Virus record (IMG/VR): IMGVR_UViG_3300044489_000058 | Coordinates: 1 to 23,515 of that record | Origin: a virus | Length of the DNA stretch: 23,515 nt | Reading direction: 5' to 3' (one strand) | Part shown: positions 152 to 23,473 of the stretch, piece after piece | How positions within the stretch are numbered: the first letter of the stretch is position 1 | Layout: each line of letters opens with the position of its first letter | Notes under the pieces: model-generated | Database searches by the model: none | The model's input: only the letters and a program-made list of their open reading frames with translations | What the model was told of the DNA's origin: nothing | Position numbers and translations under genes: made by a program

Positions 152-156
152 TCTTA

Positions 157-178
157 ATGCCCTAGCGGGCATTTTTTT
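157..178 (+). terminator. Rho-independent terminator
   Basis: A perfect 6-bp stem ATGCCC/GGGCAT with a TAGC loop is followed directly by a run of T residues (173-178). It sits between the stop of the truncated first gene and the ribosome binding site of the 203-544 gene. No promoter is visible between it and that gene, so the downstream operon would need read-through, antitermination or a promoter I do not recognise. Confidence 0.85.
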
Positions 179-202
179 GATTTGAAAGGAGAATGAAATG
201 AA

Positions 203-544
203 ATGACAACTTATATCGGTCTAGCAATAGCGGATGGGATGTTTCCATCCACTTGTACAATTAGTCGGCGTGAATTGAACGCCGACCAAGTTAAAGAAAT
301 TATCATGGCTGGGATTGTCACTTGCTGCAACCCAAGCCACCAAACAACATTAAAGGCGCTGGATCAGAAATTTGGTATTGTTGTGCCATTTCGGATCGCG
401 CCGGTAATGGTTTCTCTTAAATCAAATGATTCGATAATTGTCCTTTCCGCCCGTTTTCCTCGCCGGTTGGCTGAGGGGGAAACCTGGACGCAGGCAGATG
501 TAGATGCAGCCGAATTCAAGTTCGGCGAGTGGTTAGTAATATGA
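203..544 (+). CDS. Candidate viral ring nuclease / type III anti-CRISPR (DUF1874, AcrIII-1-like)
   Basis: This 113-residue protein matches the length and layout of the DUF1874 family (STIV B116, SIRV1 gp29), enzymes that cleave the cyclic tetra-adenylate second messenger of type III CRISPR systems. Seen in the sequence: an N-terminal strand beginning TTYIGLAI; a loop with His46 followed by QTT, where SIRV1 gp29 has its catalytic His47 in GHDST; then a helix ending KFG; and near residues 87-92 RRLAEG, matching the conserved R-L-x-E-G of the family. The C-terminal strand FGEWLV fits the family end. AAAGGAG (185-191) lies 11 nt before the ATG. It is the first gene after a terminator and its stop overlaps the next start (ATGA). 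A host-type Crn2 or a non-enzymatic DUF1874 protein is the main alternative. The call rests on remembered family motifs, not on a search. Confidence 0.72.
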   Translation: MTTYIGLAIADGMFPSTCTISRRELNADQVKEIIMAGIVTCCNPSHQTTLKALDQKFGIVVPFRIAPVMVSLKSNDSIIVLSARFPRRLAEGETWTQADVDAAEFKFGEWLVI

Positions 545-2608: not shown

Positions 2609-3397
2609 ATGTGCCAATTTTTATCGTTTTTGATCGTTCCGACCCCAAACGGGTTGTCTATCCTGACCGACGGCGTTCTTACCAGCCACGATACTATTAT
2701 CAAGACGCACCACCCGCCAAAGTATTACGAGGGGGAATGGCTGGATGATGATAGTGTCGTCATCCGGGTCACGCATGACACCAGCGAAGCAATAGCCGAT
2801 AAGATAGCAACCTGGGTTCGGGCAAACTACACCCGCCATAGGATCGTCAACGCTCAGATCATCAGCGATCTGAAGGCAGGGATTGTGCCGGATGGATTAT
2901 TATATCTGGTTCACCCAAAGTGGAACGAACGTACACAACAGATTTTTGCCTGTGATTGTGCCGAGCGGGTTCTCCCAGTTTGGAAGAGAAAATATCCAGA
3001 CGATAAACGACCGGAGGCGGCGATTGAGACCACCCGAAGATATGCGGATGGGTTGGCAACAAAAATAGAACTAATTGCCGCCAAGGATGCCGCCAAGGCT
3101 GCTGCCAAGGCTGCCGCCGGGGCTGCCGCCAAGGATGCCGCCGGGGCTGCCGCCGGGGCTGCCGCCTGGGATGCCGCCTGGGCTGCCGCCTGGGATGCCG
3201 CCGGGGATGCCGCCTGGGCTGCCGCCAAGGCTGCCGCCGGGGCTGCCGCCTGGGCTGCCGCCGGGGATGCCGCCTGGGCTGCCGCCAAGGCTGCTGCCAA
3301 GGCTGCCGCCAGGGCTGCCGCCTGGGATGCCGCCTGGGCTGCCGAACGCAAGTGGCAGGCTCAGCACTTGCTAGACATGATCGGGGAGGAAAACTAA
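2609..3397 (+). CDS. Imm5-like domain protein with a 22-copy tetrapeptide repeat tail
   Basis: A 262-aa protein. Residues 1 to about 110 form an unassigned N-terminal domain starting [15 protein letters not shown]. Around residues 112-150 is a segment ([21 protein letters not shown]) typical of the Imm5-like putative immunity family, which is usually followed by Ala-rich helical repeats. Residues 159-246 are exactly 22 tetrapeptides of form (K/G/W/R)-(A/D)-A-A, and the protein ends in [23 protein letters not shown] precedes the ATG at 2609, and the stop overlaps the next start (TAATG). A role in immunity is only suggested by the family name; phages carry many such proteins of unknown function. 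The repeat is much more regular than expected for a degenerate Ala-rich helix. Confidence 0.75.
3083..3346 (+). repeat. 22 x 12-nt in-frame tandem repeat
   Basis: 264 bases made of 22 units of the form NGG-GMT-GCC-GCC or AAG-GMT-GCY-GCC, each encoding one tetrapeptide. The units differ at the first codon (Lys, Gly, Trp or Arg) and at the second (Ala or Asp). Because the repeat contains no stop triplets in most frames, it creates several long false open frames on both strands. It is a likely site of copy-number change by slippage or recombination. Confidence 0.95.
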
Positions 3398-3573
3398 TGC
3401 CAGACGATACGAGCGAATATACCGAATGTCCAGCCTGCGAAGGCAACGGGATCGTTATAATACCCAATACCCAGATTCTTCCCGATGTCTTCAACTGCGC
3501 TTATTGCGAAGGAACCGGCATCATGGAGTATCAGCAAGCCGTACAATACCATGAGGACAACCGCGATGAGTAA
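3397..3573 (+). CDS. Small zinc-knuckle protein with two CxxCxGxG motifs
   Basis: A 58-aa protein with CPACEGNG near the N-terminus and CAYCEGTG about 23 residues later. The pair resembles the zinc-binding repeats of the DnaJ cysteine-rich domain and would bind one zinc ion. No J domain is present, so it is a stand-alone zinc ribbon, common in phage early regions. The start overlaps the preceding stop (TAATG) and GGGGAGGA lies upstream. Its partner or target is unknown. Confidence 0.75.
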   Translation: MPDDTSEYTECPACEGNGIVIIPNTQILPDVFNCAYCEGTGIMEYQQAVQYHEDNRDE

Positions 3574-21939: not shown

Positions 21940-23172
21940 TTAGTACGGAGCCTCCAATACTTCCAACTTGCCAGGATATAACATTAACTCGGTTGCCGCC
22001 CAAACAAGCGCATCCATCCGGTTGGGTGAAGGGTCGCCTGGTATCCATAAACACATCTCGTCTTCCATTGACGGAAATAGCCCGACCTGGTGCGCTCGCC
22101 CCTGCTCATAGATCGCGGCGATAGGTTCGGCGCGGGTTGCCTTGCCCCTGGATGCGTGAACCAGCCTGACGTTGACGGTCGGGTCGACCGTCAAGATCGT
22201 TTGGCTCACCATCTCCCCGCCCTGATTCGCCTCAGCGATAACCGCGTCAGCCTTCCAACGATGATAGGCGGCAACTGCGGCGGTTGCCCATTGCAGGGGC
22301 GAACCCTGGACGCTGTTATCTTCCAGAATGTATATCTCCCCGTTTGTGCCAGCCGTGACGATTCCTGCCTCATCGCCGGTGGACGTGATGGACGGGTCAA
22401 CCCCGACAACGACCCTGTACAGGTTATCTGGACATTTCAAGACCCTGCTCTTGTCAATCGTTTCCCGCGTCCACAGCGCCCCAGGCGCTTCGTCGATGTC
22501 CTCGGCGAGTATCTCCTGACGATAGGCAAGGTTGGTCATATCATGGGTAATTTCATCCAGCGCCGACTTGCTTATCTTTGGGTTGTCCATGCTCGTAAAG
22601 TGAAACGCCTCCCACCTGCCAGTCTTGTCTTCAGCCGCCCGCTTGTACATCTTCGCGGCGTGCTGCGGGTCATTCGACTTCGTGACGCTTCGACTGTGAA
22701 GCGATGGCGGCGTATAAACGAAAACAGCATCCCCGTCATGATCCAACAACATCGGAGCACCGACTTCCTCCCAGGCTGCCTCATCCGTCAACTGCCATTC
22801 GTCGAGTATGAGCAAATCAGCATAGTCCCCACGCATTGTATCGCTGTTCCAGGCAGTTTTGCCCCTGATGCGCTGCTCCGTACCCCTCAACTCGATGATG
22901 TGCTCCGTTTCATTTTTATTGAATATCCCTGCCGAAACAGGCTCAGCCAGCGCACGGCAAACAAGCGCCCACCAACGCCCCAACTGGTCGGCGGTCGGCG
23001 CGGTGTAAAGCACCCGCCGCCCTGCCAGAAAGCGCTTGATAGATAGGATCGCCACCCCATGAGTTTTGCCGCTTCGCCGTCCTGCCCGAATGATCTTTCG
23101 TTTTGCAGTCGAATCGATAAACGCGGCTTGTTTTTCGTGCGGTCGGGATAGGTGTATCATCCTGTCAGTCAT
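21940..23172 (-). CDS. terL: Terminase large subunit
   Basis: A 410-aa packaging motor. Walker A GRRSGKT is at residues 31-37 and Walker B LLILDE at 120-125. The C-terminal nuclease domain has acidic residues in GVDPS (Asp259), IAEANQGGE (Glu314) and NRMDAL (Asp387), the RNase H-like triad. ATP hydrolysis drives DNA into the prohead and the nuclease cuts concatemers. The start at 23172 overlaps the TerS stop by 8 bases (ATGACTGA); in-frame starts upstream would run deep into terS and are unlikely. Confidence 0.95.
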   Translation of the reverse strand: MTDRMIHLSRPHEKQAAFIDSTAKRKIIRAGRRSGKTHGVAILSIKRFLAGRRVLYTAPTADQLGRWWALVCRALAEPVSAGIFNKNETEHIIELRGTEQRIRGKTAWNSDTMRGDYADLLILDEWQLTDEAAWEEVGAPMLLDHDGDAVFVYTPPSLHSRSVTKSNDPQHAAKMYKRAAEDKTGRWEAFHFTSMDNPKISKSALDEITHDMTNLAYRQEILAEDIDEAPGALWTRETIDKSRVLKCPDNLYRVVVGVDPSITSTGDEAGIVTAGTNGEIYILEDNSVQGSPLQWATAAVAAYHRWKADAVIAEANQGGEMVSQTILTVDPTVNVRLVHASRGKATRAEPIAAIYEQGRAHQVGLFPSMEDEMCLWIPGDPSPNRMDALVWAATELMLYPGKLEVLEAPY

Positions 23173-23473
23173 CGTACACCACCCGAAGCACCTGGACGGC
23201 ATCAATGTTGATGTTATCTGGTACTTTGCCGTAGCAAATTTCAAGGAACGCCCGCTGTAATTGCGGGTTTTTAGACTGCGCCCATTGACGCAGGATAGCC
23301 TCGCTTACCGTCACCTTATGCCCATTGATGATGATAGGCTGCCCGCCAGATGTCGCCTCCTCATGAGCGATAGCCTGAGCCAGTTCCCGAAGCGCGTCAA
23401 AGGTTTTAGGTCGCCCGCGTCTATTAATTCTTGCATCACCCTTTTTGAAAGTCCCTGGTTTTTGGTCTATCAT
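23165..23473 (-). CDS. terS: Terminase small subunit
   Basis: A 102-aa protein starting MIDQKPGTFKKGDARINRRG, the basic KGDxRINRxGRP DNA-binding motif found at the start of DUF5681-type small terminases, followed by helices (FDALRELAQAIAHEE and ILRQWAQSKNPQLQRAFLEI). It would recognise the packaging site and recruit TerL. It is the first gene of the minus-strand operon inside the window and is preceded by a large dyad. Confidence 0.82.
   Translation of the reverse strand: MIDQKPGTFKKGDARINRRGRPKTFDALRELAQAIAHEEATSGGQPIIINGHKVTVSEAILRQWAQSKNPQLQRAFLEICYGKVPDNINIDAVQVLRVVYDD

Follow-up and report, generated by a model that had tools for sequence, protein, structure and literature searches.

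The window analysed here, a stretch of 23,515 bases, is the whole of one virus record. Genes for the terminase, portal, major head protein, tape measure, endolysin and a methyltransferase lie on its minus strand, and a plus-strand cluster includes recT. The reading frame of 113 codons at 203–544 on the plus strand was found with the coordinates, ATG start and length given in the preliminary description. The locus contains the following features.

156–173, plus strand: terminator-like hairpin, AATGCCCTAGCGGGCATT followed by a T run, between a truncated upstream gene and 203–544
185–191, plus strand: AAAGGAG, probable ribosome-binding site read from the sequence, 11 bases ahead of the ATG
203–544, plus strand: coding sequence of a DUF1874-like (ring-nuclease fold) protein, 113 amino acids, ATG start
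338–340, plus strand: codon of His46, within PSHQTT; in alignments this residue falls on the His that is catalytic in classic DUF1874 proteins
464–478, plus strand: codons of R88-L89-A90-E91-G92, which align to RLxEG, a motif conserved in classic DUF1874 proteins

The gene is closely followed by the frames 541–696, 697–912 and 909–1121 and then by recT (1123–2181); the frame starting at 541 overlaps its stop codon. Its earlier placement as the first gene of the cluster is nearly right: a truncated plus-strand gene ends upstream at base 151, and the hairpin at 156–173 lies between the two. As judged from its sequence, this hairpin is a moderately convincing candidate terminator (nine terminator-like sites in the region against 5.3, sd 2.6, in shuffles). 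Early expression of 203–544 would be consistent with the neighboring RecT gene and with the location of the structural genes on the opposite strand. Relatives with identities as low as approximately 25% retain the frame, and hence 203–544 encodes a real protein.

The large terminase (21940–23175, minus strand) is 62% identical to TerL of the Methanosarcina virus MetMV over 88% of the query. Other genes common to the window and MetMV are few, with weak matches, and the window encodes a GH25-like endolysin, which would rather suggest a peptidoglycan-bearing host. On these grounds, the terminase match is not taken to name a host; a MetMV-like terminase in a virus most of whose other genes show no such resemblance points to an exchange of genes among virus groups or to a host that would not be expected. 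Among other plus-strand genes, 2609–3397 contains a long Ala-rich repeat (about 3080–3345) and has an Imm5-like match (PF21805, E 8.9e-10), and 3397–3573 encodes a 58-residue protein with paired CxxC motifs that resembles both DnaJ-type zinc fingers and Q-like antitermination proteins (phrog_6060, E 4.8e-6).

The protein encoded by 203–544, hereafter the window protein, was compared with the AcrIII-1/DUF1874 viral ring nucleases, which include SIRV1 gp29 (2x4i, 6scf), AFV3-109 (2j6b) and STIV B116 (2j85). Searched alone, it matches PF08960 with 15.6 bits (E 0.018), under the curated Pfam cut-off of 26 bits, and its top PDB sequence is AFV3-109 with E 0.23; an NCBIfam search gave no match. The top PHROG is phrog_5063 (E 8.6e-4), which represents DUF1874, as each of the 11 classic members matches this PHROG. 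The PADLOC model PDLC01147, labelled as Csx16, a CRISPR-associated cA4 ring nuclease, also matches the window protein (E 1.5e-4). The same model matches 11 of 11 classic DUF1874 proteins, down to 9e-21, and therefore behaves as a DUF1874 model, so a bridge from the window protein to Csx16 was dropped; no other Csx16 model was matched in a Pfam search of the window protein. The Csx16 label of PDLC01147 may itself be mistaken or cover too much.

When single proteins were searched against viral contigs, phages and plasmids, no close viral relative was found. The IMG/VR searches with the queries P0001, A1 and P0014 gave no close relative, and a search of viral sequences with A5 reached only classic members of the Microcystis-phage type. 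The plasmid matches are confined to Planktothrix plasmids (29% identity), and a Pseudomonas match of 19 residues (L010) was rejected as a chance match within another gene. The viral records related by terminase lack a copy of the gene; most of them are fragments, and the near-identical L040 and L041 end before this region.

A genome scan identified four true relatives, in WWE3 (about 58–60% identity), Syntrophaceae (45%), a Patescibacteria MAG (42%) and another bacterium (35%). A family profile yielded seven strong matches in 380 Patescibacteria genomes, the WWE3 genome counted, and two matches in 395 genomes of the Syntrophaceae phylum. Twelve of the relatives found make up the family alignment (A2). 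The majority of relatives are stand-alone genes on Patescibacteria chromosomes; the carriers are loci L013–L019 in genomes G001, G019, G107, G142, G296, G308 and G310. Their neighbors are housekeeping genes, such as clpC and polA at the WWE3 locus L006 and ruvABC and rpoB-like genes elsewhere, all named from their translations without a database search. The Patescibacteria proteins L006, L008 and L014–L019 are the nearest relatives of the window protein and share with it the CxNPSH and GLA/GFA motifs; unlike the window gene, they are chromosomal and stand alone beside housekeeping genes. The G107 copy (L015 1495–1821, minus strand) has an in-frame TAG near its start and looks broken or read differently. 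Two cellular relatives, L009 5953–6522 (plus strand) and L019 1143–1631 (minus strand), each have a short tail at the C-terminus; the tails match the helix-hairpin-helix/RNA polymerase alpha CTD and a zinc ribbon, weakly and under the cut-offs.

The assignment to DUF1874 comes from the family and not from the single sequence, as the window protein is under the PF08960 cut-off but two of its relatives exceed it, P0012 with 26.8 bits and P0009 with 31.6 bits, also in a six-frame search; the identities of this pair to the window protein are 44% and 34%, in no assigned order. A profile of the 12 family members aligned by hhalign to the profile of classic DUF1874 proteins over 102 columns (probability 97.3%, E 2.6e-11), with His46 paired to the classic His; the window protein alone reached 91.7%. 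The family profile scored 67.5, against a maximum of 22.2 (8.5%) in 200 column-shuffled family profiles, and the window protein scored 41.2, against a maximum of 19.9 (4.7%) in 300 shuffled sequences. The family profile ranked AFV3-109 first among PDB sequences (E 6.4e-4), with STIV B116 and Csx1-Crn2 among the weaker rows below it. Profiles built from the family only and from the classic proteins only each recover members of the other set. The proposed homology to DUF1874 thus holds at the family level, where the profile match is significant, and falls short for the window protein taken alone against PF08960.

The predicted structure points in the same direction. An AlphaFold2 model of the monomer, built from 11 family members and limited, as all our predictions, to single chains, has a mean pLDDT of 95.4 and pTM of 0.85. 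In a Foldseek comparison with PDB (E 9.5e-7), all 16 chains below E 0.001 are DUF1874 proteins (6scf, 2j85, 2x4i, 2j6b, 8y7f, 8y7g). A second structure aligner gave Z 13.1 and rmsd 1.9 over 97 residues for 2x4i, 12.4 for 8y7f and 12.3 for 2j85; the next fold, an unrelated one, scored 2.1. The predicted monomer thus has the DUF1874 fold. A chance resemblance of an unrelated protein would fit the weak single-sequence scores against PF08960 (E 0.018) and AFV3-109 (E 0.23). This explanation is extremely unlikely: all of the profile and fold evidence opposes it, the shuffled controls score far lower, and it is refuted unless the model is wrong. Membership of the window protein in the DUF1874 superfamily is well supported, and within the superfamily it falls, with its relatives, in a separate branch.

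In SIRV1 gp29, His47 is the catalytic residue, and the H47A mutant is inactive and retains cA4 binding (PMC7213978). His46 of the window protein, already proposed as a catalytic-type His, aligns with it in the profile alignment and does not vary among the 12 relatives. The proposed R-L-x-E-G motif is likewise borne out, with R88-L-A-E91-G92 aligned to the classic motif. Length, monomer fold and location in a virus are further features shared with AcrIII-1. The fold is also that of Crn2 and Csx1-Crn2 (8y7f, 8y7g), and the His equivalent to His46 in the latter, His495, is required for cA4 cleavage (PMC7293037). Unlike Crn2 and Csx1-Crn2, the window gene lies outside a type III CRISPR locus and is not fused to Csx1. 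Identity with Crn4 was set aside, as the Crn4 fold is reported to be unrelated.

A protein of the same fold could instead be a non-enzymatic DNA- or RNA-binding or regulatory protein, which we consider quite unlikely. Some classic viral homologues are annotated in RefSeq as 'DNA binding protein', and one cellular relative has the weak helix-hairpin-helix-like tail and another the weak zinc-ribbon-like tail described above. However, this annotation is older than the enzymology or takes no account of it, the tail matches fall under the Pfam cut-offs, and the His and Arg at known catalytic positions are invariant in a family with diversity down to 25% identity.

The window protein is only 13–21% identical to the AcrIII-1/DUF1874 proteins and differs from them in the putative ligand pocket. 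Seven columns are invariant in the 11 classic members (N6, G44, H45, R64, R83, E86 and G87 in AFV3 numbering). Four of these are kept in the window protein, as His46, Arg88, Glu91 and Gly92, and three are replaced (N6 by Leu7, G44 by Ser45, and R64 by Pro67); in SIRV1 numbering the missing residues are Asn8, Gly46 and Arg66. Asn8 and Arg66 are absent from 12 of 12 relatives. The preliminary description noted the divergent PSHQTT sequence around His46 but missed the loss of this Asn and Arg. The roles of the classic Asn8, Arg66, Arg85 and Glu88 are assumed from their conservation. The family has conserved features of its own: CxNPSH where the classic proteins have AIGH, a residue at column 22 that is always basic (R22), Asp76, and, in 9 of 12 relatives, Arg at column 84. 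Three two-residue insertions precede the His, the xP-V strand (the Asn-Arg strand of the classic proteins) and the RL motif. In a tree of 23 rows, rooted only at its midpoint, the split between the 12 relatives and the 11 classic members has support 100/99, which leaves the window protein outside the classic clade. The window protein groups weakly with the WWE3 protein (80/20). The RLxEGE subgroup, formed by these two proteins and L019, is the closest in the family to the classic members.

These differences bear on a second explanation, in which cA4 is not the ligand and the protein instead cleaves, or binds as a sponge, another cyclic nucleotide such as cA3, cA6 or a CBASS-type signal. A change of ligand would then explain why the classic Asn and Arg are missing and why three insertions lie around the pocket. 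The family's own CxNPSH, R22 and column-84 Arg, its separate clade and the Patescibacteria carriers without Cas10 (see below) agree with this explanation, and broad cOA specificity is known in another ring nuclease, Crn4 (PMC12830947). On the other hand, His46, Arg88, Glu91 and Gly92 are kept in the subgroup of the window protein, which is nearest to the classic members, and the DUF1874 enzymes in the cited literature all act on cA4. We regard a ligand other than cA4 as possible, if rather unlikely.

The gene had been taken to imply a host with a type III CRISPR system that signals through cA4. The distribution of the family does not support this implication: Cas10 had no detectable match in any of the seven Patescibacteria carriers sampled, where a missing match is weak evidence of absence, as MAGs may be incomplete. 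Cas10 matches over the cut-off were found in 5 of the 380 Patescibacteria genomes, none of them a carrier; with such a low base rate, the disjointness of Cas10 and the gene says little. The point that counts is that the gene is present in genomes without detectable Cas10, and thus a genome that carries it need not have a type III system. The two Desulfobacterota-type carriers have strong Cas10 matches, located elsewhere in the genome.

On balance, we somewhat favor the explanation that the window protein is a ring nuclease of this DUF1874 branch, likely acting on cA4, that disarms type III CRISPR during infection. The small protein would probably be dimeric and could bind a cyclic oligoadenylate, with cA4 as the first choice, between its two subunits. 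The bound ring would then be cut; in this reaction His46 would donate a proton to the leaving group, and Arg88 would contact the phosphate. Expression together with the recT cluster could allow the protein to disarm type III CRISPR signalling in the course of infection. Cleavage of a cyclic oligoadenylate is the most likely activity given the shared fold and catalytic residues, with cA4 as the first candidate and cA4 cleavage likely; an anti-defence role is the most likely function, as predicted from the sequence and the model. Counted against the explanation as a ring nuclease that disarms type III CRISPR are the position of the window protein under the Pfam cut-off, the replacement of Asn8, Arg66 and the Gly before the His, and the fact that its relatives are mostly chromosomal genes of Patescibacteria, with no Cas10 match in any of the seven carriers sampled.

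We speculate that a branch common to a virus and to Patescibacteria that lack type III systems could apply its catalytic His to another cyclic nucleotide, or could serve an episymbiont against the immune signal of its host; either would be unlikely. Since the window protein is under the curated cut-offs in standard single-sequence searches, proteins of this kind probably go uncounted in surveys of viral ring nucleases. As the branch also occurs in small Patescibacteria in which Cas10 is not detectable, one may ask which signal these cells degrade. The catalytic residues are kept and the classic pocket only partly so, which makes this branch a good test of the determinants of ligand choice.
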